The notes beneath the pieces were generated by a model that had not been told where the DNA came from, searched no databases, and saw only the letters and a list, made by a program, of their open reading frames with translations. This document shows, one piece after another, positions 487-11,525 of a stretch of 32,296 bases of DNA (positions are counted from its first letter, which is position 1; every line of letters starts with the position of its first letter). Made by a program: the position numbers and the translations under genes. Origin of the DNA: Terriglobia bacterium (lineage in GTDB: Bacteria > Acidobacteriota > Terriglobia > Terriglobales > Acidobacteriaceae). The stretch spans positions 1-32,296 of the forward strand of contig JAIQFW010000039.1 of NCBI GenBank assembly GCA_020073105.1, read 5' to 3'.

Positions 487-2871
487 CTAACCAGCCGATT
501 GTGCCGACCGGCTGGCCTCCGGCCCCGGCGTTGTGATCTGGGTGGCGCGCAGTTGTTCGGGGGTGAGGCTGGGTGTTTCAAGGTCCGCCTGCACCGGCAG
601 CATCCCCACGGCGTGGTTTCGCCCCTTTTGCTTGGCGACGTACAAAGCCCGGTCTGCCAACTCCACCACGATTTCGTATCGCACCGCGTCCGGAGCCGTA
701 CAGAACCAGGGGAATGCAGCCCACCCGATGGAACAGGTTTTTCGCAATGGCATGGGTGCATTTTTCAAAACGAAGGGTTCATTGCCGATCGCCTGGAGAA
801 TACGGGACGCGAGGGTGGTGGCTTGACTGCGTTCCGTGTAACGGGAAACTACCAGGAATTCTTCACCACCCCAGCGCACCAGGACATCGGACATGCGGAT
901 GGCGGACTGAATGCGTCGCGTCATCTCCGCCAGAAGTTCATCGCCCGCCGCATGCCCGTAGAGGTCATTGACCTCCTTGAAGTGGTCGGCGTCGATCAAG
1001 TAGAAGATCAGGTCGCGATTGCGGACCTGGTCCGTCTCCCTTAAGTAGGAACGGACTGCTTGGCGAACGTCGTTCTCGATTGTGACCTGGAAGAAGCGGC
1101 GGTTGCGGGTGCCAGTGAGGGGATCGGTCAGTGACGCTTCGCGCAACTCCTGGTTCAGGCGCTCCAGCTCCTGGCTACGCTCGGCTACGGCCAGCTCCAG
1201 CCGCCGGCGGTCCTTCTCCAGGGAATAGGTGCGGAAGCGGAGAACCCCGTAAAGGGCCATGCCCAGAACCGCCAACCCGAGATCACGAATCCACCAGCGC
1301 TGCCACCAGGCGGGCAGCACTTGGAAGGAGAATACCGCCGGAGTGCCTTTGATGCCGGCTCCCGCCTGGCAGGCGACCTCCAGCGCATAGTCTCCCGGAG
1401 CCAGAGCAGCGTAGTGGATCTCTCGCCCCATGGCTTCGGTGAACTCCCCATCCAGGCCAACCAGCCGATAGCGGCAGCGCAAGGCGGCAGGATCTTTGTA
1501 CGACAGCACTGCAAATTCAGCGTTTAAGGTGTTTTCCTTGTGAGTGGCGTGCGGAAGCTTTTCTGTGAGCCGTTCGTGCCCGCCAAGTTGCAACGACGTG
1601 AAGATTACGCTCGGCGGAACCGGTCTCAGAGTCGCTTCCACATGCGGATCGAAGCGTGCAAGACCCCCGCTGGTTCCGAACAGAATCGTCCCGTCTTGCT
1701 CAGCAAAGAACCCCTCTTCGCTTTGGTCGTCCCAAAGCAAACCGTCGGCATGTCCGTAGCATCGGACTTGGCCATCTGGAGCAATTCGTGCCAGGCCGCG
1801 GGCGCCTCCGGCCCAAACATTGCCTTCAAGGTCCCGGCCGAGCATGAAGACTTCGTCAGACCGTAAACCCTGGGCGCTGCCAAAATGCGCTACCTCCGGA
1901 ACCTGATTGTGAAGTCCAAGCCGGGTGATGCCAGGAGCGTCTGAATATCGGACCCAGACCTCATTTCTGTCCACTGCGAGAGCTTGGCCGATGCCGTCCG
2001 ATAGCAAGCCGTCGCGATGACTGTATTGCGACCAGGCGTGACCGTCATAGCGGCCCAGTCCCTGGCGGCCGCTGGTCCACAGGGTACCGTCGGGCGCAGT
2101 GGAGAAACTCGTGATTCCGTCCACGATCTCCTGTGGCGCCGGAACATCCTCAAAGATCCACGGCCGCACTGGCGTACGTAGTGCTTTCAGGCTGTGCGGG
2201 GCAGCGACCCAAATTCGCCCATCCGGCCCCAGGCCGACGTGGGTTAGGTCGGGGCCGGGCACGGTGACCTTTTCCGGCCGCAAGCTGACGGGGTCAAAGC
2301 GGGTCAGGCCTCCCGGATGACACAGTACCCAGATTGAGCCATCCCGGGCCAGCGCGAGCCGCCGCGCGGTCAATCCGTTCAGTCCATCGCGCTCCTTCCA
2401 GGTCCGGAAGCGATGCTGCGCGCCGTCCCACATAGCCACGCCGTTGTTGGTCGCGATCCAAAGACGCTGATGGGTATCGCGTAATTCTGACCACACAACG
2501 TTGTCGGGCAGGCCTTCCACATCCGTCCAGCCCGACCAGGTTCGCTCCCCCTGCCAGCGCTGCATCCCGTGGCCGCCGTATCCGAGCCAATACGTGCCTT
2601 CGCGGTCCTCCATCGCTGAAAAAACTGCGTTACTGGCCGCGCCACGCGTCTTGTCCACCACGTCCCAGTGGTCGCCACGATGGAGATAAAGACCTGCGAC
2701 CGTAGGAACCATGAGGCGGCCTTCGCTTCTCTTCCCGGACGATGCGCAACGCCACGATGGGCTCTTTCGGAAGCTCGCTCTGCCCCGGCAGCCAGTGGGC
2801 TTGCCTGGTTTCACTAAACCATCCCACGCGGCCATCACTGGCGAACCAGACCCTTCCGTCGGGAGCGGCAT
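487..2871 (-). CDS. Diguanylate cyclase, C-terminal piece: propeller repeats, Y_Y_Y domain, TM helix, GGDEF (frameshifted gene)
   Basis: This 794-codon frame holds the larger part of a sensor diguanylate cyclase. In order: many two-component-regulator propeller blades (patterns such as DG.IWV and G.L.RYDG), a Y_Y_Y domain, one membrane helix (LGLAVLGMALYGVL), a coiled-coil linker and a GGDEF domain. The GGDEF domain has LTDPLTGTRNRRFF, IDADHFKEVND for metal binding, and the catalytic loop GGEEF at 870-856. RMSD sits five residues before GGEEF and matches the RxxD inhibitory site, so product feedback by c-di-GMP is likely. The expected reaction is 2 GTP to c-di-GMP in the cytoplasm, with the propeller in the periplasm. 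Only codons after about 2730 are homologous. The upstream 45 or so residues are out-of-frame read-through, and the true N-terminus is the piece at 2630-3502. Confidence 0.8.
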   Translation of the reverse strand: MPLPTEGSGSPVMAAWDGLVKPGKPTGCRGRASFRKSPSWRCASSGKRSEGRLMVPTVAGLYLHRGDHWDVVDKTRGAASNAVFSAMEDREGTYWLGYGGHGMQRWQGERTWSGWTDVEGLPDNVVWSELRDTHQRLWIATNNGVAMWDGAQHRFRTWKERDGLNGLTARRLALARDGSIWVLCHPGGLTRFDPVSLRPEKVTVPGPDLTHVGLGPDGRIWVAAPHSLKALRTPVRPWIFEDVPAPQEIVDGITSFSTAPDGTLWTSGRQGLGRYDGHAWSQYSHRDGLLSDGIGQALAVDRNEVWVRYSDAPGITRLGLHNQVPEVAHFGSAQGLRSDEVFMLGRDLEGNVWAGGARGLARIAPDGQVRCYGHADGLLWDDQSEEGFFAEQDGTILFGTSGGLARFDPHVEATLRPVPPSVIFTSLQLGGHERLTEKLPHATHKENTLNAEFAVLSYKDPAALRCRYRLVGLDGEFTEAMGREIHYAALAPGDYALEVACQAGAGIKGTPAVFSFQVLPAWWQRWWIRDLGLAVLGMALYGVLRFRTYSLEKDRRRLELAVAERSQELERLNQELREASLTDPLTGTRNRRFFQVTIENDVRQAVRSYLRETDQVRNRDLIFYLIDADHFKEVNDLYGHAAGDELLAEMTRRIQSAIRMSDVLVRWGGEEFLVVSRYTERSQATTLASRILQAIGNEPFVLKNAPMPLRKTCSIGWAAFPWFCTAPDAVRYEIVVELADRALYVAKQKGRNHAVGMLPVQADLETPSLTPEQLRATQITTPGPEASRSAQSAG

Positions 2872-3502
2872 ACACCGCTTCGACTTCCCCGCTGGGAAAT
2901 GAGTGTTGCTGCATGGCGAGCCATCGGTTTGGATCGTCGACTGCTACCGCCCAAAGTCCATGATCGGTGGCGACATAGGTGCTTTCGCCGGAAGCGGCAA
3001 TAGCCATCACCTGGTACAGCGAGAGGAGGCGAACGCCTTGTGGAAGGGCGATTGATCGGAAAGCATCGCCACTTTGTACCGCCAGCCCGTGCCGGGTCGC
3101 CACCCAGATCCGCCCGTCGGTAGTTTGGGCGACTTGTTCGATAGACGTACCCGGAAGCCCTTGCGCCACGCCAAACTTCACAACGTGTGCGCCGTCGTAG
3201 CGGAGCAAGCCGTTCATAGAGCCGATCCAGATAAACCCCTGGCGGTCCTGAAACAGGCACACTGGCGTAATCGTTGCCAGCTCAGCGCTCCCGGCGACTC
3301 TCTGAAAGACGTAGCGGGCGCGGTCGGGAACAGGCAGCGGGGATGAGTCCCGGCCCAAGGAATGAGAGGAAGAGGCGTAGGAACCCGTGACCAGTAACGC
3401 AGTTACGGCTAGCGTCTCTTTCCAGCTTCGGCCCTTTGCGGCGTTCTTCAAGTTGCTTTGTGCCCTGTCGGCAGGGGGTTGCTGGTGAGTACGGAAATGC
3501 AT
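2630..3502 (-). CDS. Diguanylate cyclase, N-terminal piece: signal segment and first propeller blades (frameshifted gene)
   Basis: The ATG at 3502 starts a frame with a charged N-terminus, a hydrophobic export segment (LAVTALLVTGSYA) and then propeller blades (DRQGFIWIGSMNGLLRYDG, TTDGRIWVATRHGL, APDGRVWFASDG). Similarity holds to about 2730 (VALRIVREEK) and then degenerates. The other frame continues as EGRLMVPTVAGLYLHRG, so the two frames join around 2727-2733 by a net one-base excess in this strand. Fused, the protein would be roughly 1,000 residues, the usual size for this architecture. Either the gene is a young pseudogene or the sequence has an indel error at that point. About 260 bases of non-coding DNA separate it from the upstream operon. 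Confidence 0.7.
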   Translation of the reverse strand: MHFRTHQQPPADRAQSNLKNAAKGRSWKETLAVTALLVTGSYASSSHSLGRDSSPLPVPDRARYVFQRVAGSAELATITPVCLFQDRQGFIWIGSMNGLLRYDGAHVVKFGVAQGLPGTSIEQVAQTTDGRIWVATRHGLAVQSGDAFRSIALPQGVRLLSLYQVMAIAASGESTYVATDHGLWAVAVDDPNRWLAMQQHSFPSGEVEAVYAAPDGRVWFASDGRVGWFSETRQAHWLPGQSELPKEPIVALRIVREEKRRPPHGSYGRRSLSPSWRPLGRGGQDAWRGQ

Positions 3503-3783: not shown

Positions 3784-4605
3784 CTAGCGGTTCGCCAGTG
3801 GTGCCGGACGGAAGGACCAGGTCATACCCCATGAGTACACTGCGATGATCAGCATGACGTCCAGCGGCATGCCGAACACGATATACAGCAAAGGCATGAA
3901 CAGCACGGTTTTCTGCAGCACCAAGGCCTGCAGCAGGACCTGGAAGGGCAGAAACAGCGACAGGTGGGTCATGGTGAGTGCGGTAAGCAACGCCTTTCTC
4001 AACAGGCCGAAGTCGAAGATGTAGTAGGTGAATCCGAACAGGAGCGGAACCACCGAAATCAATCCCGCCCCGGAAGTGACCAATGCTTCCAGATAGCCGT
4101 CCGGCGTGTGCGGAAAGCGTGTGGGGAACAGGGCGAAAAAAATCAGGGCCGATGCCTGGACCAGCAACACCGCACGCAGCAGATAGACCAGGGGGACCAG
4201 TCTCTTGGGGAGGAAGAAGCTGGCGGCGAACAGCAGCAGGGTGACGGCACAGGTCAGCGACCAGGTGGTTAAAGTTGGCAACACAGGCTCCACTCGGAGA
4301 TACGGAATCTCCAAGTGGAAGAGGTGTGTGCCATGCTCCGCTGTATCGAGTCGTGCGTCCAAGGGCAAGTTCTGAAGCGCGAAGGCGAAAGCGCTGCTCC
4401 AGAGTCTGCAAACCCACGGCAGGAATGCCACCCAAACCCACGAAAAGAACAGGAAAAGGGAGACCGACGTGAGCACGTTCATCGGCCCGAGGCGAAAGTG
4501 GGTAAGGGCGCGGTGCATGGCGATGACACCGCCGCGATGTCCACGAAAACGGACCGGATCCGTCGGGCGCGACCGGTTGAAGGTTTGTGGGTTGGGAGCG
4601 CGCAT
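3784..4605 (-). CDS. Unknown polytopic membrane protein, last gene of polysaccharide operon
   Basis: I chose the ATG at 4605 because it lies one base after the stop (4609-4607) of the upstream barrel gene, as expected for translational coupling. This gives 273 residues. After about 40 polar residues there are about six hydrophobic segments, including NVLTSVSLFLFFSWVWVAF, TCAVTLLLFAASFF, AVLLVQASALIFFALF, GAGLISVVPLLFGFTYYIF, LQKTVLFMPLLYIVFGM and MLIIAVYSWGM. I do not recognise a family and see no catalytic motif. Operon position suggests an inner-membrane role in assembly or export of the polymer. No database family is asserted. Confidence 0.7.
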   Translation of the reverse strand: MRAPNPQTFNRSRPTDPVRFRGHRGGVIAMHRALTHFRLGPMNVLTSVSLFLFFSWVWVAFLPWVCRLWSSAFAFALQNLPLDARLDTAEHGTHLFHLEIPYLRVEPVLPTLTTWSLTCAVTLLLFAASFFLPKRLVPLVYLLRAVLLVQASALIFFALFPTRFPHTPDGYLEALVTSGAGLISVVPLLFGFTYYIFDFGLLRKALLTALTMTHLSLFLPFQVLLQALVLQKTVLFMPLLYIVFGMPLDVMLIIAVYSWGMTWSFRPAPLANR

Positions 4606-4606
4606 T

Positions 4607-5479
4607 TCAGAACTCCTTGAAAAATCCGAAGCTGCTTCCTCCTCGGGTGTAGAACGGGTTGTGGTAGTAGTCCCCCACCGCGTTGAAGCCCCAGCCGGTG
4701 CCGATCCACTTTCGCCAGGTAATAGTGAGCGTAGAACTGTTGAACTGGCTGATGCTCGCGCTGGATCCAATCAACTGGTACGCCTCTTCCCCAAAGCCGG
4801 CATGGACCGTGATGTACTGCTGCTTATCTCGACCTTGGGTGACGGCCACGAAACCTGCAGGCGCTAAGACTGCTCCGGGGTGGCTGACATTGAAATAAAT
4901 GCCTTCCTCCAGGATCCAGGGCTTTTCGAAGTAATAGGTTGTGCCCAGGAAAAAATTGTGGTCGCGATGCGGATCTTTGGCCGCGATGTAGGCAAAACCT
5001 GCAGTGGTGATCCACTGCTTCCGTCCCAGCCACTTCTTGTTGATGAAGGCATCCGTGCGAAACCGCGGCCAAAAGAATCCCCCGACACTGCTGCCGACGG
5101 TGATGGCGCCATACCAGTCAGCATTGATGTTGTAGGTGTCTCCGGCGGCGAAATAGACGCCTGCGTCCCCAAACTCGCGCTGCCCATTGATTTCCGCGTT
5201 CCAGATGTTCTTTCCGTCCTGGTAGACCCCTCGAGTGTATCCGCCGCTCCAGGAACCGAAGCCATTGGTGAGCCCCAGGTAGGTGCCGCCGGTTTCCACG
5301 TAGTTGGTCAGGAGTTTGACGTGTGCCTCCGGAGGAGCGGCGGCAACGACCTGCTGAGCCACCGGGGCCGGATCCGCCGCGACCGCATCAGCCTGTCCTT
5401 GTGCCCGGAAAGTGAAGGCGCACCCCAACAGCAGAAGCAGCCCGGCGGCGCAACAATATTTTTGATATGTCTGCATCAT
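4607..5479 (-). CDS. YaiO-like outer-membrane beta-barrel protein
   Basis: 290 residues. An N-terminal signal sequence (hydrophobic CCAAGLLLLLGCAFTF, then a likely cleavage near RAQGQA) is followed by an Ala/Pro-rich linker and alternating amphipathic strands rich in Tyr, Trp and Gly. It ends in Phe (GFFKEF), as outer-membrane barrels usually do. Segments such as TLTITWRKWIGTGWGFNAVGDYY resemble the YaiO family, whose E. coli member sits beside a glycosyltransferase and a deacetylase. The start ATG at 5479 overlaps the deacetylase stop (ATGA). By context I infer that it is an outer-membrane conduit or anchor for the polysaccharide made by the operon. PgaA/BcsC-type proteins have TPR domains that this short protein lacks. 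The family call is from memory of pattern, not a search. Confidence 0.7.
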   Translation of the reverse strand: MMQTYQKYCCAAGLLLLLGCAFTFRAQGQADAVAADPAPVAQQVVAAAPPEAHVKLLTNYVETGGTYLGLTNGFGSWSGGYTRGVYQDGKNIWNAEINGQREFGDAGVYFAAGDTYNINADWYGAITVGSSVGGFFWPRFRTDAFINKKWLGRKQWITTAGFAYIAAKDPHRDHNFFLGTTYYFEKPWILEEGIYFNVSHPGAVLAPAGFVAVTQGRDKQQYITVHAGFGEEAYQLIGSSASISQFNSSTLTITWRKWIGTGWGFNAVGDYYHNPFYTRGGSSFGFFKEF

Positions 5480-7341
5480 GGATTCACCATCTTGGTTTCA
5501 AATTGCAGTTCTTGCCCCGGCCCAGCAACTACCATCCAGCCGTCATTCGCGCGAGTGACCTGGGCGGAGCCCCGAACTACAACCGGTTCGGAGAATCTGG
5601 CAGCGGAGAGCCGCCAGGTCTCATGTTGCAAGTCCTGGGGATGGGTGGCCGAGATCGTTACCAGGCCGCCTGCCTGTGAAGCATTCCAGCTCACCTGCTT
5701 GCGGGAGTTCAGGAAGCGGGCGAGTTCCGTCATGGTGTACCAGCGGAACTGGCGCGTCTTTTCAAGGCCGGAGGTTTGCCTCATCCAATTGTCAATCGCC
5801 TTGCGATAGCCAACGATTCCGGGAGGGTGGAAGTAAACCAGCCGCGCAGTCCGGAAGCCTGCCGCAAAATCGGTCATCGCTTGCAGCCATTCTTGAATTT
5901 GCGAGCTTGGGTACCCATCCCTCACCATTTCCTCAAACGCAGCATCCTGGTTCAGGTGGGCAACCGGAAATGCCCAGAGGTTCTGACCTTCTCTCACGCC
6001 GTCGCGATAACCCTGGGTGGGTGCCATGCCCGAATCCCCGGTGTAGTAGTAGGCGACGAACCCGTGGGTGTCGAGCCAGTGCGTTACCCATTTTGGCTGG
6101 TTGCCGTTGGGAGCGGAGTACTCCACCACCGGCTTGTGCGTGACCGCTTCGAGCGCATCCTTGTTCCAGACCAGGTACTTCTCCAAGTCCTTGGGATCGT
6201 CCTTATCCACGTGCGCGGAGAAGTAATCGTGGATCCAGCCGCCGTGGCTGCCGATCTCGTCGCCGCGCGCTATGTGCTCGCGAATTAACTGCTGGCTGAG
6301 AGCATTGTGTGGCACATCAAAACCGAAGTGGTCGCCGGGCTTCGAGGCGTCTGGACCGGCGGTGACGTGAATGGAGAATCGTCCTTGCCGCAATAGGGCC
6401 CAGGACCTCAAGTCTTCGAGCGGCTTGATCGCGGCGTTGGAGTCGACGTGCCAGTTCAACACCAGCCCCCCAATTCCATCGGGGACACTCAGCAGGGCGG
6501 GCAAGGAAAGGGTGTGCACAGCGAAATACTGAAGGAACGCGTGCAGCAATAACCCGTCGGTGTTTGCTTTAAGGTATCCCAGCGGCAGATTGACGAACAG
6601 CACCGAGCCTTTTCCAAACGCGTGCTCGCTGGCAACGACGCCGCCAGGAGAATGGAAGAGGACACGGCCGGAGGAGCTTCCTGAGGTCACAAAGCTGGGG
6701 TAGTTCAGTTCGCCAAACTTATAGCGGCGCAGTTGGACCTCAACATCGCCGCCGCCTATTCCTGCAGCGCCAGCGGTCGGCGCCGGCCTGGTCGTTGTCC
6801 TCTGAAAAGGGAAGTATTTCCCCGGGGGGATGTTCATTTGCTGGATGGTTGCGCGGTCCGTTGCAACGCTGCCCCACCGAATTGTGTTGTCGTGAAGCTG
6901 GTCATACAGGGCGTAATCAATTCCAGCCAGGTCGGAAAGCCGGGACCAGTCGCGCGGATACTTGCCCTCCGGTGTCAACGTGCCCGCATCGAACACCAGC
7001 ATCAGTTGACCGCCGCCGAGGACAAACCGGCGGATGGCGGCAATGAAGGAGTCCCCGGCCCGCTGGTGGATCGAGTCGGGTAGGATGATTCCGGCGCAGT
7101 TCGGTTGCCGGAAGAAAGGCCGCACGAATTCGGAGTCCTGCATCGGAACGACGTGCAGGCCCTCTTCGCTCGCGGCGTCGAGCCATAGCGTTACGCGAGG
7201 GTCAGAGAAGCTGGTGCCATCGGGCAAGAGCAGCAAAATGTCGTCCATGCTCGTGGCGGAACCCCTGTGTCCGAACCACAACCAGAACGCGGCAATCAGC
7301 AGAACAACGGTTGTGGCGATAATGATCCAGCGAGGCTTCAT
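5476..7341 (-). CDS. Membrane-anchored polysaccharide deacetylase with GATase-like N-terminal domain
   Basis: I chose the ATG at 7341 because it overlaps the stop of the upstream gene (ATGA), giving 621 residues. One N-terminal membrane helix (WIIIATTVVLLIAAFWLWF) anchors it facing the periplasm. The first half (DDILLLLPDG, FVLGGGQLMLVFDAG, GKGSVLFVNLPLGYL) has the alternating pattern of a class I glutamine-amidotransferase-like fold. The second half is a NodB-type deacetylase, with WHVDS at motif 1, GDEIGSHGGWIHDYF at motif 2, SAPNG at motif 3 and LVYFHPPG near the end. A short beta-rich C-terminus follows. The histidines in motif 2 are spaced H-x4-H rather than the usual H-x3-H, and motif 1 has a single Asp. 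It would be expected to remove N- or O-acetyl groups from the polymer before export, but activity is less certain because of these changes. Confidence 0.8.
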   Translation of the reverse strand: MKPRWIIIATTVVLLIAAFWLWFGHRGSATSMDDILLLLPDGTSFSDPRVTLWLDAASEEGLHVVPMQDSEFVRPFFRQPNCAGIILPDSIHQRAGDSFIAAIRRFVLGGGQLMLVFDAGTLTPEGKYPRDWSRLSDLAGIDYALYDQLHDNTIRWGSVATDRATIQQMNIPPGKYFPFQRTTTRPAPTAGAAGIGGGDVEVQLRRYKFGELNYPSFVTSGSSSGRVLFHSPGGVVASEHAFGKGSVLFVNLPLGYLKANTDGLLLHAFLQYFAVHTLSLPALLSVPDGIGGLVLNWHVDSNAAIKPLEDLRSWALLRQGRFSIHVTAGPDASKPGDHFGFDVPHNALSQQLIREHIARGDEIGSHGGWIHDYFSAHVDKDDPKDLEKYLVWNKDALEAVTHKPVVEYSAPNGNQPKWVTHWLDTHGFVAYYYTGDSGMAPTQGYRDGVREGQNLWAFPVAHLNQDAAFEEMVRDGYPSSQIQEWLQAMTDFAAGFRTARLVYFHPPGIVGYRKAIDNWMRQTSGLEKTRQFRWYTMTELARFLNSRKQVSWNASQAGGLVTISATHPQDLQHETWRLSAARFSEPVVVRGSAQVTRANDGWMVVAGPGQELQFETKMVNP

Positions 7342-8411
7342 GCGCCGGCCACCACCCGGCCCTGCTCTCGGGCCCACAACGTTCCCAACACTACGACGCC
7401 GGGCTCTATCTCAATGCGTGGGGCGCTGACGGTGGTCGGACTCTCCGAGGTTCCGCAGCAAGTGCCGCTTTCAAAATGTATCGTCTGCTCGGCAATCACC
7501 GGGCCGTGAATCCGGCAATCCCGGCCAATGTGCATGTTTCTTGCGCTGATCAAACTGCCTTCCACGCTGACGCAGGGTTGGAGGACCATGCTCTTTTCGC
7601 TCTTCACACTCCCGCAAATTCGTGCCCCGCTGCCGATGTGCAATCTGCCTCTGACCACCAGGTTCCCGTGAAATACCTCGCCGGCGGGAATCTCCAGGTC
7701 GCCGTCGTGCAGCGTGCGCGGGAGATTGGTCGCGACGCTGGCAGGTAGGCTCTCAGTTTCTGGAGGAGTCGCGGGAACGTCTGTGGTTCCGCCGACTTCG
7801 ATCCGGGGTGCGTTCAGCCGGAGGAAGCTGCAATCGGGGCTCAAGCGGATGATGCGGTCGGAGGATATGCGCCCGTACAGCTTGCATCCGGGATTAGCGC
7901 TGAAGTTGCCGACCGCATGGACCCAACGCATCACACTGCTGCCATTGCCCAGGTGAACATCGTGTTCTGCCAGGATCGCGCGGTACCGGTTCTTCGCGCC
8001 CCCAATCAGTCCTCCGGCGGCATAGATGTCCTTCGAGAAAGTCGTCTCTGCAGGCAGAAGGAGCTCCGTGCCCGCGGCAATCATTACCTCGCAACCCTCC
8101 TCCCGCTCTTTGAGTGGGAGCAACAGCGCCTGGTCGCCGCGGCCAAACACCACGTACTCAGTTCCGTCCGGCATGGCGCCGGCGGCGGTTTCACCCGACT
8201 GAACACATCGTTGCAGGGTGGGCCCCAACGCCTTGAGGTAGGTGCGGAAACCGTCGGCGAAGAAACGTATTTCTCCCGTGTGCTGCTGCACCACGGTCAG
8301 CGGCAGAGCGTCCGACTTTCGCCGCAGTTCCACCAATGCCGGCACCAGCGGCAGCATAAATAGCGTGCCCGCCATCAAGCAAAGGACTGCGACGCCGATA
8401 TAGGGGTTCAC
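7338..8411 (-). CDS. Membrane-anchored bactofilin-like (polymer-forming) protein
   Basis: I chose the GTG at 8411 because it overlaps the GT2 stop (GTGA); a longer upstream frame is antiparallel noise over the GT2 gene. The protein has 357 residues. An N-terminal helix (GVAVLCLMAGTLFMLPLVPALVEL) is followed by a mixed region. The C-terminal half shows short repeating strands with turn glycines (DLEIPAGEVFHGNLVVRG, LHIGSGARICGSVKSEK, NMHIGRDCRIHGPVIAE), the pattern of a bactofilin-type right-handed beta-helix. Bactofilins are cytoskeletal scaffolds that in some bacteria recruit wall or polysaccharide enzymes. Its place between synthase and deacetylase suggests a scaffold for the synthesis complex, which is inference. 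Confidence 0.65.
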   Translation of the reverse strand: MNPYIGVAVLCLMAGTLFMLPLVPALVELRRKSDALPLTVVQQHTGEIRFFADGFRTYLKALGPTLQRCVQSGETAAGAMPDGTEYVVFGRGDQALLLPLKEREEGCEVMIAAGTELLLPAETTFSKDIYAAGGLIGGAKNRYRAILAEHDVHLGNGSSVMRWVHAVGNFSANPGCKLYGRISSDRIIRLSPDCSFLRLNAPRIEVGGTTDVPATPPETESLPASVATNLPRTLHDGDLEIPAGEVFHGNLVVRGRLHIGSGARICGSVKSEKSMVLQPCVSVEGSLISARNMHIGRDCRIHGPVIAEQTIHFESGTCCGTSESPTTVSAPRIEIEPGVVVLGTLWAREQGRVVAGA

Positions 8412-9652
8412 GACGCCGCCTTCCGAAAGCGCTCTGTCTTGTCCCAATGGAACTCGGCGCCGATCAGAGCGTCCTTGACCTGGGCAAACGCTGCGCGGGT
8501 CACGGAGAAGATGCTGACGGTAAAGCCGAGCAGGAGAAAGGGCAGCAAGCACGCCCGTTTGCGGGAGCCGTCGAGCCGAACCGCGGCAGCAATCTCGAAG
8601 AACGCCGCCAGATTCCCGATGGCCGCGTAGGCGGTCACGGAAAGAATGGCCACGACCCCATGCAAGGGGGCAACTCCCTGGTAGAAGACGGCCAGCGCCA
8701 GTATCCAGCCCAGCATGGTCACCGGCGCCATGATGTAAACGCCGAGCAGCAGCGTCCCATCGATCCGTTCGCGCAGGCTGGCGCGGTGTTTTCCCAGAAG
8801 CAAGTGCAGTCCGTAGGCCACCATGGCCTGGTTGTGGCCCTTGGCCCAGCGCATGATCTGCTTGATTCGCACTTGCCAGGTTTCGGGAACCTCCTCGTAG
8901 CACTCCGAGCGGTTTTGGTACACCGTCTTCCAACCGTGCAGCAGCAGGCGATACGTGAGGTCGGTGTCTTCGGTCAGAGTGTTGTCATTCCATCCGCCGA
9001 TCTCCTTCAGTGCGCTCAACCGGACTCCCGCCACGGTGCCGCCATGTTGCGGTACCAGCCGGAGATTCATGCGTGCCTGCTGGTCCACCTGGTAGCCGCC
9101 CGAGCGTTCCAGGTCAAGCAGGCGGGTCAGCAGATTGGTGCCGCAGTTCATGGGCACCACCCGTCCCATGACGCCACCCACTTCCGGGTCAAAGAAGGGG
9201 GCCACCAGTTGCTTGATGAGACCGGCGCCGGGAATGTAGTCCGCGTCAAAGATCAAGATGACCTCGGTCCCCACCATCTCCATGGCATCTTTCAGAGCGG
9301 CTGCCTTTCCTCCCTTCCCAGTAACGCGATGGAAGGGCTGGATGCGGCCGGGGAAGCGCTCAACGAAGCTGTCGATGATTTCGCGGGTACGATCGGTAGA
9401 GCGATCATTGACCGGCACAATCAGCATCTTGTCTTCGGGGTACTTCACCGTCATCAGGGCGCTGAGGATGTTGGCGATGACCTTTTCTTCGTTGTGTGCG
9501 GCGACCAGCACGGTGACCGGCGGCCAGTCGGCGGTATCAATGTCGATGTAGGGGTGTCGCTGGAATCCGAACAGACGGTTCAGGGTGAACCAGTAATGGC
9601 GGACCGTATAGATGCAGATGATTGAAACAATGACGTAAAGTACATAAATCAT
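8408..9652 (-). CDS. Processive family 2 glycosyltransferase (exopolysaccharide synthase)
   Basis: 414 residues. An N-terminal helix (IYVLYVIVSIICIYTV) precedes the GT-A domain, which carries all signatures of processive inverting synthases: D83 in VND, DAD at 136-138, TED at 226-228 (catalytic base) and QIMRW at 264-268 (QxxRW). Three or so C-terminal membrane helices follow (TLLLGVYIMAPVTMLGWILALAVF, GVVAILSVTAYAAIGNLAAFFEIAAAV, LLPFLLLGFTVSIFSV), forming the likely channel. This matches the cellulose/chitin/hyaluronan/PNAG synthase superfamily. It should polymerise a UDP-sugar and pass the chain through the inner membrane. The adjacent wecB suggests a HexNAc donor such as UDP-ManNAc or UDP-GlcNAc. 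It has no PilZ domain, so any c-di-GMP control would be through a partner. Confidence 0.88.
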   Translation of the reverse strand: MIYVLYVIVSIICIYTVRHYWFTLNRLFGFQRHPYIDIDTADWPPVTVLVAAHNEEKVIANILSALMTVKYPEDKMLIVPVNDRSTDRTREIIDSFVERFPGRIQPFHRVTGKGGKAAALKDAMEMVGTEVILIFDADYIPGAGLIKQLVAPFFDPEVGGVMGRVVPMNCGTNLLTRLLDLERSGGYQVDQQARMNLRLVPQHGGTVAGVRLSALKEIGGWNDNTLTEDTDLTYRLLLHGWKTVYQNRSECYEEVPETWQVRIKQIMRWAKGHNQAMVAYGLHLLLGKHRASLRERIDGTLLLGVYIMAPVTMLGWILALAVFYQGVAPLHGVVAILSVTAYAAIGNLAAFFEIAAAVRLDGSRKRACLLPFLLLGFTVSIFSVTRAAFAQVKDALIGAEFHWDKTERFRKAAS

Positions 9653-9689
9653 GGCGCGCCATCACAACCGCGATCCCGTTCCCCGGCCT

Positions 9690-10925
9690 TCATTCCTTAC
9701 CTACTGCAGCGGCCCTCGCGCCCACTTCAACGTCGGTCTTGCGCCGTCGAAGTTGCGGCCTGGGCGGTAGTTTGAATTCCTTATCCGCCTCCAGAAGGGG
9801 GGTCTTCTTCCGAAACCACCGGGAGACCGCTTCCACTATCCGCTCCGAGCCGTGGCCGTCGCCGTAAGGATTCTCGCCCTCCGACATGTCGAGGTAGGCC
9901 TCGGTATCGGTCAGGAGGCGGTCGGCTTCACTGACAATTCCTTCCCGCGACATCCCGATGATCCTGGCCATGCCGAACTGCGAGGCTTCCGGCCGCTCCG
10001 TTACCTTGCGCAGTACGAGTACTGGTTTGCGGAAGGTGGGTGCTTCTTCCTGAATCCCGCCCGAGTCGGTCAATACTAGGAAGGAACGTTGCAGCAGGCT
10101 GACGAAGTCAAGGTAGCCCAGGGGTTCTGTGAGATGGATCCTCTCCGTGTCCTGCAGCAGGGCATTGACGGTGCTGCGCACGTTGGGATTCATGTGGACG
10201 GGGTAGATCACGCGGATGTCTTTATGCTTCCTGACCAGGTCCTTGAGAGCCAGGCACATGTTTTCCTTGTCCGAACCCCAGGATTCCCGGCGATGCGAAG
10301 TCACCAGCACCAGACGGCAATTGTCCTGCGGAATGTCAGCCAGAGGTGTGTTCTCCCAGGAATGAGGCAGTTTGCTGAGAGCGCGCAAGGTGTCAACCAC
10401 GGTGTTGCCGGTGACCACGATCTTCGCGCTGGGTATGCCCTCCGCGATCAGGTTGTCGCGTGACAAAGCGGTCGGAGCAAAGTGAATCTCCGTCATCACC
10501 GAAACCAGCCGCCGGTTGGCCTCCTCGGGGAAAGGGTTGTAGATGTCCCAGCTGCGCAGCCCGGCCTCGATATGACCCACCGCAATCTTGCAGTAGTACG
10601 CTGCCAGCGCGGAGGCGAAGGCAGTCGTAGTATCGCCCTGCACCAGAACTATGTTGGGTTCAAACCGGTGGCAGGCATTCTCCACCGTGTCGAGCACCCG
10701 TCCGGTAAGCGAACTCAACGTCTGATTGGGACGCATGACGTCCAGATCGAAATCCGGTTTGATTTTGAAAAGTTTGAGGGCATGGTCGAGCATCGTCCGA
10801 TGCTGGCCAGTATGGACCACGGCTGTTTCAAATTCGTCGCTACGCCGGCGCAGCTCGTCAATCACCAGCGCCAGTTTGATGGCTTCCGGTCGCGTACCCA
10901 GGACCGCGATCACTCGACACTTCAT
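9690..10925 (-). CDS. wecB: UDP-N-acetylglucosamine 2-epimerase (non-hydrolysing)
   Basis: 411 residues. It shows the family landmarks in order: VLGTRPEAIKLA at the N-terminus, HTGQHRTMLD, VQGDTTTAFASALAAYY, GHIEAGLRSWD, PFPEEANRR, VTSHRRESWG, YPVHMNPNVR and LTDSGGIQEEAP. This is the GT-B-fold enzyme that interconverts UDP-GlcNAc and UDP-ManNAc in the cytoplasm. The core is complete. The last 40 or so residues are a basic, low-complexity tail (RPQLRRRKTD) beyond the usual end. It is the first gene of the polysaccharide operon, with 37 bases separating it from the synthase gene. It most plausibly supplies the nucleotide sugar for that synthase, though the product could also serve other envelope glycans. 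Confidence 0.93.
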   Translation of the reverse strand: MKCRVIAVLGTRPEAIKLALVIDELRRRSDEFETAVVHTGQHRTMLDHALKLFKIKPDFDLDVMRPNQTLSSLTGRVLDTVENACHRFEPNIVLVQGDTTTAFASALAAYYCKIAVGHIEAGLRSWDIYNPFPEEANRRLVSVMTEIHFAPTALSRDNLIAEGIPSAKIVVTGNTVVDTLRALSKLPHSWENTPLADIPQDNCRLVLVTSHRRESWGSDKENMCLALKDLVRKHKDIRVIYPVHMNPNVRSTVNALLQDTERIHLTEPLGYLDFVSLLQRSFLVLTDSGGIQEEAPTFRKPVLVLRKVTERPEASQFGMARIIGMSREGIVSEADRLLTDTEAYLDMSEGENPYGDGHGSERIVEAVSRWFRKKTPLLEADKEFKLPPRPQLRRRKTDVEVGARAAAVGKE

Positions 10926-11000
10926 TCTTGTGCACCCGTGACTTGGTGGTGGGAGGGCGGTTGCTTACGCCTTGTTCTGCAAATACTTAGGTTGGTTTTC

Positions 11001-11031
11001 ACAGCAGGGAGAAATGATTCTGCTCCGCTGT
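11001..11031 (-). promoter_or_regulatory. Imperfect hairpin in the wecB leader
   Basis: ACAGC at 11001-11005 and GGAG just inside it pair with CTCC and GCTGT at 11023-11031, with an 11-base or so loop. It lies about 75-105 bases upstream of the wecB start and could be part of its 5' leader. There is no T-run, so it is not an obvious terminator. I give it low weight. Confidence 0.25.
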
Positions 11032-11165
11032 TAACACCACACTACGGGTCGATTCTAGTGACTCGTGGGTGGGCGTAAAAGATTACTAACGTTACTTCCG
11101 GAGCCGGCTAGCGGAGCGCGTCATGGCTGGGAGCCGACCTTGGGGTGTTCTTGTGATCCACCTCT

Positions 11166-11525
11166 TCATCCTTGTCGTTTTCTCGGCGACACCGACGCGG
11201 GTTCGAATTCGCGATTAAGAGATCCGTCCCGCCAGGCCCAGGTGGGAACTTCGTCATCCGGAATGTTGTCGGCGGCCATTCCCCGGTTTCCCGGGTCTGC
11301 ACCTCGCGGCCCTGACCCGGGAAGCACGGCCAGCATGGCCATCGAGCCGCTGGTGACCCCCAGCAGAAACCTCTCTTGCCCGACTTGCACGATGCTCATC
11401 GTGCGCCGTTCTCCGAGCGGAAGGGTCTCGCATACCCGCAACAGCCGCGGCGGGGTCGAAAGCCAGGAGTGCATCAAGTCCGTCAGCCACTCCCCTGCCT
11501 TTTTCAACGCTGGATTGCGCCTCAT
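11166..11525 (-). CDS. FliO-like domain protein (orphan)
   Basis: 119 residues. The central part (LLRVCETLPLGERRTMSIVQVGQERFLLGVTSGSMAMLAVLP) matches the FliO/FliZ pattern: strand, LPLG, (R/K)R, V.VG..RFLLG.T.G....L..L. FliO assists assembly of the flagellar export gate, and similar small domains also occur away from flagellar loci in Acidobacteria. No membrane helix is present, unlike classical FliO, and no other flagellar gene is nearby. The start ATG at 11525 overlaps the stop of a preceding 100-codon frame (ATGA), which may be its partner. The C-terminal 45 residues are polar and disordered. Confidence 0.55.
   Translation of the reverse strand: MRRNPALKKAGEWLTDLMHSWLSTPPRLLRVCETLPLGERRTMSIVQVGQERFLLGVTSGSMAMLAVLPGSGPRGADPGNRGMAADNIPDDEVPTWAWRDGSLNREFEPASVSPRKRQG

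Follow-up and report, generated by a model that had tools for sequence, protein, structure and literature searches.

In the Nfr/NGR system of Escherichia coli (NfrB, NfrA, YbcH, and WecB), the GT2 glycosyltransferase NfrB is described, in the available text of the papers on phage N4, as using UDP-N-acetylmannosamine (UDP-ManNAc) made by WecB, on genetic evidence, and as having an outer-membrane partner (PMC8669472, PMC8669469). According to the same excerpts, wecB adjoins nfrB where no other wecB copy exists, and a MshEN domain occurs in 1,705 of the 1,841 NfrB homologues, so that some lack it (PMC8669469). The Pga/Ica system (PgaABCD) combines a GT2 synthase with a deacetylase and an outer-membrane porin, and in the yaiS-yaiP-yaiX-yaiO locus of E. 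coli, a YaiO-family barrel is encoded near a GT2 and a putative deacetylase. In the case of the PssA-E/PssZ system of Listeria, the available text describes a GT2-made exopolysaccharide reported to consist of ManNAc and galactose (PMC4125290, PMC7479077). Here we describe a six-gene operon located on the minus strand (10925-3784) of a 32,296-nucleotide stretch of DNA from a Terriglobia bacterium (contig JAIQFW010000039.1; the whole stretch is called the window below). On balance, we take this operon to be an undescribed synthase-dependent exopolysaccharide system, the product of which is probably a partly deacetylated ManNAc polymer. The six genes and their products, designated by single letters, are as follows, in their order on the minus strand.

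9690..10925, minus strand: wecB (E), non-hydrolysing UDP-GlcNAc 2-epimerase, which makes UDP-ManNAc (TIGR00236 458 bits, cut-off 210; single match in the genome)
8408..9652, minus strand: G, processive-type GT2 synthase of 414 residues (PF13641 119 bits; PgaC_IcaA 130 bits, cut-off 422.3; motifs DAD, TED, and QIMRW; four predicted hydrophobic segments)
7338..8411, minus strand: B, N-terminally anchored membrane protein with a bactofilin domain predicted to be cytoplasmic (GTG start; PF04519 26.3 bits, cut-off 27.9)
5476..7341, minus strand: D, anchored three-domain deacetylase-fold protein (PF01522 24.1 bits, cut-off 23.1; AlphaFold model, fold matches, and conserved motifs)
4607..5479, minus strand: Y, YaiO-family outer-membrane beta-barrel (PF19413 107 bits, cut-off 23.9; TIGR04390 160 bits, cut-off 32)
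3784..4605, minus strand: M, multi-spanning membrane protein of no known family (no Pfam or NCBIfam match; six predicted hydrophobic segments)

The initial annotation had described six minus-strand genes tightly joined from the GT2 gene onward, which is exact by the coordinates and the junction sequences: wecB and the GT2 gene are separated by a 37-base gap (read from the sequence), overlaps of four bases occur at the GT2/B (GTGA), B/D (ATGA), and D/Y (ATGA) junctions, and Y and M are separated by a single base. In all 11 of the related Terriglobia loci, the G, B, and D genes end in ATGA, GTGA, or TTGA, so that a start codon overlapping the stop is possible at the same three junctions. The distribution of the operon within the window's phylum is patchy. 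Its G+C content is 0.598, as compared with 0.590 in the remainder of the window, and composition therefore gives no sign of a recent transfer.

No match of the whole operon was found in the Pga, Nfr, and Yai loci of E. coli K-12, and none of the six proteins matched a Pel- or alginate-named family in Pfam or NCBIfam, the Pel and alginate loci themselves not having been compared. The possibility that the operon as a whole is a described PNAG (poly-N-acetylglucosamine), Pel, or alginate-type locus, which the initial annotation had named among the outcomes that would refute it, is thus not borne out by the three E. coli loci or, at the level of family names, by the Pel and alginate families. Searches of the open-access literature yielded, among the matches listed, no paper describing such a gene set, and among the matches listed for YaiO (titles and the beginnings of abstracts), no link with a polysaccharide was present.

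The Nfr system resembles the present operon in having a GT2 with processive motifs and an outer-membrane partner and, according to the excerpts cited above, in its dependence on WecB and UDP-ManNAc. The reported linkage of wecB to the synthase gene where it is the sole copy is also encountered here, since the operon begins with wecB, of which no other copy was found in the genome. Unlike NfrB, which is described as carrying a C-terminal MshEN domain binding cyclic di-GMP (c-di-GMP), G does not match MshEN; and unlike NfrA, part of which is described as rich in tetratricopeptide repeats (TPR), Y shows no TPR match in Pfam or NCBIfam, the Y profile matching NfrA only with an E-value of 0.49. The nfrB-nfrA-ybcH operon includes no counterpart of B, M, or D by annotation, YbcH not having been tested separately with the profiles. 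As regards the Pga system, the D, Y, and M profiles gave no significant match to PgaB, PgaA, and PgaD, respectively, and the score of G against the PgaC_IcaA equivalog lies far below its cut-off. In the yai locus, YaiP scores 67 bits against G, which is below PgaC, and no match to D, M, or wecB was found. The yaiX gene of E. coli K-12 (L099, 4845-6873), located between yaiP and yaiO, is interrupted by IS2; YaiX was considered as a homolog of B and rejected, the scores obtained on two fragments (7.5 bits, with an E-value of 0.0013 in an unfiltered search of 11 proteins, and 1.8 bits) being too weak. The Listeria system differs from the present one in having a BcsB-type subunit and a GGDEF receptor, and the available text mentions no bactofilin or YaiO protein (PMC4125290); the Listeria polymer is the product of a different gene set.

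The conservation of the gene set was analyzed starting with D, which is rare: a single-protein search matched 2 of the 297 genomes of the window's phylum at E<=0.001, including the window's own genome. With the alignment of these two proteins, a scan covering a single genome of each GTDB species was carried out, restricted to the stretches matching either of two short patterns (139 stretches), and 33 loci were confirmed. Eleven of them are of the Terriglobia type, and the others are labelled Persephonella, Aquificaceae, Hydrogenobacter, Thermocrinis, Thermodesulfovibrionales, Firestonebacteria, Zixibacteria, Sporomusaceae, Holophagaceae, Aminicenantes, Gemmatimonas, Latescibacterota, Fibrobacter, and "proteobacterium" or belong to one further Acidobacteria metagenome-assembled genome (MAG). 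The neighboring genes, which were searched for with profiles grown from the window proteins, consist of G (32 of the 33 loci), B (32), M (30), Y (29), wecB (19, in or near the cluster), and an additional lipoprotein-like family, C (18). G, B, M, and Y are absent solely where a contig ends; a 3.4 kb contig carrying pieces of D and C alone (L037) was counted as a miss. The wecB gene is therefore frequent in the cluster but not fixed, and C is present in none of the 11 Terriglobia loci and not in the window. The gene order is E-G-B-D-Y-M in Terriglobia; Aquificota and Thermodesulfovibrionales show (E-)Y-M-G-B-D-C, and most of the other loci M-G-B-D-(D)-C-Y.

Since this first scan had been based on D, M was then searched for in whole genomes. 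Matches were obtained in the window's phylum (8 of 396 genomes), in the phylum to which the Sporomusaceae genome belongs (4 of 249), and in the Aquificota phylum (14 of 136); one match (G790, E 7.9e-4) was discarded as due to chance, there being nothing around it. In 24 of the 25 genuine genomes, the cluster with M also contains G, and in 23 it contains B, the shortfalls being attributable to contig ends in G405 and G713. G directly adjoins M in 22 of the 25 genomes, the exceptions including the window, where M comes last after B, D, and Y, and G263, where B lies between them. Nine of the 25 were already represented by the window or the D-selected loci (G000, G280 [L035/L005], G340 [L031], G399 [L028], G397 [L022], G404 [L021], G405 [L019], G683, and G712). 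In the 16 new genomes, G was found in all 16 and B in 15; D is present in seven (G626, G682, G686, G739, G744, G745, and G747) and missing from the stretches analyzed in six (G051, G113, G250, G263, G415, and G650), its status being cut off by contig ends in the other three (G211, G710, and G713). M, G, and B are therefore the constant core, and D, Y, wecB, and the lipoprotein-like C vary. Since other genes follow M-G-B in two loci devoid of D, the modification part of the system looks exchangeable. In G686, a genome of 1.7 Mb belonging to the Aquificota phylum, the whole seven-gene form is carried by a contig of 1.74 Mb, which shows that the gene set is not merely a binning artefact. The idea of a stand-alone polysaccharide operon put forward in the initial annotation is supported by this co-conservation across phyla, which was observed in both the D-selected and the M-selected sets; a survey without co-conservation was an outcome that the annotation itself had named as refuting it.

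The wecB gene was detected in all 17 of the cluster-bearing genomes searched, and in 12 of them it is part of the cluster or at most about 15 kb away (G000, G250, G263, G396, G397, G400, G401, G402, G415, G626, G686, and G739). In five of these, namely the window's genome (G000), G396, G397, G686, and G739, the copy in the cluster is the sole one found. It is also located in the cluster in nine further genomes of the Aquificota phylum (G405, G682, G683, G710, G712, G713, G744, G745, and G747). Since wecB scores above the cut-off in 10 of 14 control genomes, it is its linkage to the cluster and not its presence that counts as evidence. In a tree of 46 WecB rows, the copies from Aquificota, Nitrospirota, and Zixibacteria form one clade (99/99), which includes an unlinked copy of G280, and the Terriglobia copies form a separate one (98/99). 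The linked label, which was given to copies lying up to a few kb from the cluster, the copy of G415 (about 15 kb) being labelled unlinked, requires five changes on this tree, at least two of which are forced by well-supported branches; these changes may be gains or losses. Given the linkage in 12 of the 17 genomes and the sole copy found in the window's genome, UDP-ManNAc is likely to be the donor, as proposed in the case of NfrB, and by the same analogy the window's polymer is probably ManNAc-based. The N-acetylhexosamine precursor suggested in the initial annotation can be narrowed down to UDP-ManNAc, the product of WecB. The same annotation had stressed the combination of wecB and a bactofilin-like gene in one coupled operon as belonging to no named system: both genes are indeed present and no described set was found, but wecB turns out to be a variable member.

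The amino acid sequence of G matches GT2-type, GT21, and cellulose-synthase families exclusively in Pfam, where no c-di-GMP receptor domain was matched, and the named family nearest to it is PgaC_IcaA. Among 49 G sequences, QxxRW was found in all 49 and D[AG]D in 48, the sole exception being a gene split into two frames, and the acidic motif reads TED or SED in 21 and AED in 28. The sequence features general to synthase-dependent exopolysaccharide systems are therefore present: a GT2 with these motifs, and a barrel and a periplasmic-type modifying protein encoded with it. The barrel protein Y matches only the YaiO family, exceeding both cut-offs; the TIGR04390 match spans positions 61-290 of its 290 residues, and a signal-like hydrophobic segment is present at positions 8-26. 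The AlphaFold model of M is helical with one beta-hairpin (mean predicted local distance difference test score, pLDDT, 87), and a profile search of the PDB gave no match, as in the case of Pfam and NCBIfam. Known membrane folds were considered for M and rejected: the best Foldseek match had an E-value of 0.54, and the best VIA-align rows (Z 7.8 at most) were unrelated helical proteins; M is not taken to represent a new fold on that account.

In the AlphaFold model of D (pLDDT 87.9), an N-terminal alpha/beta domain resembling the middle domain of GH42 is followed by a NodB/CE4-fold domain (residues ~288-550) and a C-terminal beta domain. The best matches of the CE4-fold domain are 3qbu (Z 22.7, root-mean-square deviation (rmsd) 2.5, 234 residues) and 3rxz (Z 22.4, 241 residues). 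By fold, the model also resembles part of PelA (9cgy; Z 15.0, 452 residues aligned, rmsd 7.5). PelA carries an additional hydrolase part, a feature that distinguishes it from D. In place of the CE4 motifs DD and HxxxH, all 36 D rows show NWHxD and HGGWxH, which are invariant and 66 residues apart, and YSAPxG (in which the S is nearly invariant) and RLxYxH are also conserved. The same three-domain plan can be recognized in the available description of Agd3 (CE18, a family with the motifs CM1-CM4), which has a DD motif followed more than 120 residues later by HxxxH, contrary to the motifs and spacing of D (PMC7229062). Since the aspartate preceding the presumed metal-binding aspartate is missing in NWHxD, the mechanism of D would be unusual; the protein is nevertheless likely to be active.

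When the neighboring hits in its frame are included, B scores 29.3 bits against PF04519, as compared with 26.3 bits alone (cut-off 27.9). In 30 of 33 family members, the number of lysine and arginine residues is higher after the membrane anchor than before it, and in none is it lower. According to the positive-inside rule, the positively charged side of an anchor is cytoplasmic, which places the predicted beta-helix of B in the cytoplasm. Three ordinary bactofilins are encoded elsewhere in the window's genome. The role of a cytoskeletal scaffold, as proposed for B in the initial annotation, would be a reasonable one.

Taken together, these data suggest the following scheme. WecB would convert UDP-GlcNAc into UDP-ManNAc in the cytoplasm, and the membrane-bound GT2 G would polymerize it, most likely into a ManNAc-containing chain, which G, presumably in complex with M, would thread through the inner membrane. 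B would sit in the inner membrane through its anchor, its beta-helix of the bactofilin type facing the cytoplasm, as a constant partner of G and M that may cluster or position the synthases. The anchored D could then strip some of the N-acetyl groups in the periplasm, and the chain would leave the cell via the YaiO barrel Y. A bolder version, which is possible but which we would hold only tentatively, is that a single obligate synthase complex of an undescribed type is formed by M, G, and B in the inner membrane, in which a polymer of the anchored bactofilin arrays the GT2s so that an ordered ManNAc polymer is produced, the modifying enzymes (D or other modules) and the barrel being exchangeable.

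Several observations weigh against this scheme. The D scan covered only the stretches containing either of the two short patterns, and the sequences behind the M profile were those of the window and the D-selected loci, although the neighbors of the new matches had no part in it. M is not located beside G in Terriglobia; D is absent from the stretches of six M-G-B genomes, a seventh (G211) being cut by a contig end; and D lacks the canonical catalytic aspartate. A WecG/TagA-family protein encoded on another contig of the window's genome is another possible user of ManNAc, and seven dehydrogenase matches occur in this genome, none of which exceeds the WecC cut-off. No biochemistry was found for any member of the set. 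Among the E. coli proteins tested, moreover, G is closest to PgaC (133 bits), ahead of YaiP and NfrB (23 bits), and wecB is carried by another contig in G280, G399, G403, G404, and G406. These last two points, along with the fact that PgaC_IcaA is the top named family and that Pga likewise pairs a GT2, a deacetylase, and an outer-membrane porin, would fit a PNAG-like system, in which G polymerizes UDP-GlcNAc, D deacetylates the product, and WecB supplies other glycans or contributes a minor sugar. We consider this rather unlikely, since G falls so far short of the PgaC_IcaA cut-off, no partner resembling PgaA, PgaB, or PgaD was recovered with the D, Y, and M profiles, and linked wecB genes occur in two distinct WecB clades, no second copy having been found in the window's genome.

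Another question is whether B might be a left-handed beta-helix acyltransferase acting on the polymer or its precursor instead of a scaffold. The B profile gives lower E-values with LpxA/LpxD-type structures in the PDB (2.4e-07 at best) than with the solved bactofilin 6ria (0.019), and yaiX, between yaiP and yaiO in E. coli, is annotated as a putative acyltransferase. In Pfam, on the other hand, 30 of the 33 members match Bactofilin (PF04519) at E<=1, as compared with 15 for LbH_EIF2B and 11 for Hexapep, and the invariant columns of B (R, W, G, and G) include no histidine, so that an acyltransferase is an improbable reading of B. Lastly, the product might be not a free polymer but a capsule- or lipid-anchored glycan, or a non-processive GT2 might build a short glycan on a lipid carrier. 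This would be in keeping with the fact that, in contrast to the Nfr system, G matched no c-di-GMP receptor domain and Y no TPR, and with the D-less locus L053, which adjoins a protein just below the PMT_2 cut-off and a gene read as a methyltransferase. Against it, no flippase or polymerase was recognized among the six proteins, although M matches nothing, and we regard this last alternative as quite improbable.

If the preferred reading, that of a synthase-dependent ManNAc exopolysaccharide system, is correct, such a system, so far without a name, would be present in Acidobacteria, Aquificaceae, Persephonella, Thermodesulfovibrionales, Firestonebacteria, Zixibacteria, Sporomusaceae, and others (by their labels). 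A bactofilin-domain protein would then be tied directly to polysaccharide synthesis, a second genetic route to ManNAc polymers would exist beside NfrB, and the YaiO family would acquire a clear setting. A cultured carrier should be findable.

The clusters show some further variations. Tandem D genes occur in four of the five Firestonebacteria clusters (L027, L030, L032, and L033, not L036) and in the Aminicenantes locus L035, in which the first copy matches the N-terminal half of the profile alone. The clusters L024, L025, and L026, labelled Fibrobacter, Latescibacterota, and Gemmatimonas, are highly alike and share their flanking genes; these MAG contigs probably belong to one lineage with doubtful names. 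In G712, from the Aquificota phylum, five copies of M are present on short contigs (C84, C75, C145, C79, and C54); the four copies fetched hold E-Y-M-G, three of them with B as well, which may reflect mixed strains or a real duplication. In two D-less clusters of the phylum including Sporomusaceae (L086 and L087), frames read as VTC, DUF4956, and CotH proteins follow M-G-B, which amounts to another set of modifying genes. In L086, the reading frame of B (9735-11486) continues into BspA-type leucine-rich repeats, and a gene after B scores above the DHHW cut-off in Pfam and just below that of AlgX; in L087, a gene after B was read as an MBOAT transferase. As regards the lipoprotein-like C, a profile search of the PDB gave no informative match, and a search of the window's genome, which had no positive control, did not detect it. 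C was also considered as a GH126/PssZ-type hydrolase and rejected: three members were tested, and apart from one DUF2264 match below the cut-off, they matched nothing.

Downstream of M, at a distance of 281 bases, the window carries on its minus strand (487-3502) a Reg_prop/Y_Y_Y/GGDEF diguanylate cyclase gene, which is split into the overlapping frames 3502-2630 and 2871-487, due either to a real break or to a sequencing error. Control of the operon by c-di-GMP via this gene was considered and rejected, GG[DE]EF frames being found in only 5 of 50 stretches, including the window, and the gene was left out of the system. On contig C300 of the window's genome (L001, L006), a second YaiO domain is present on a longer protein, read as carrying TPR-like repeats, and a GT2 weakly resembling G (74 bits) is encoded about 3.3 kb away; this contig perhaps carries another polysaccharide locus.

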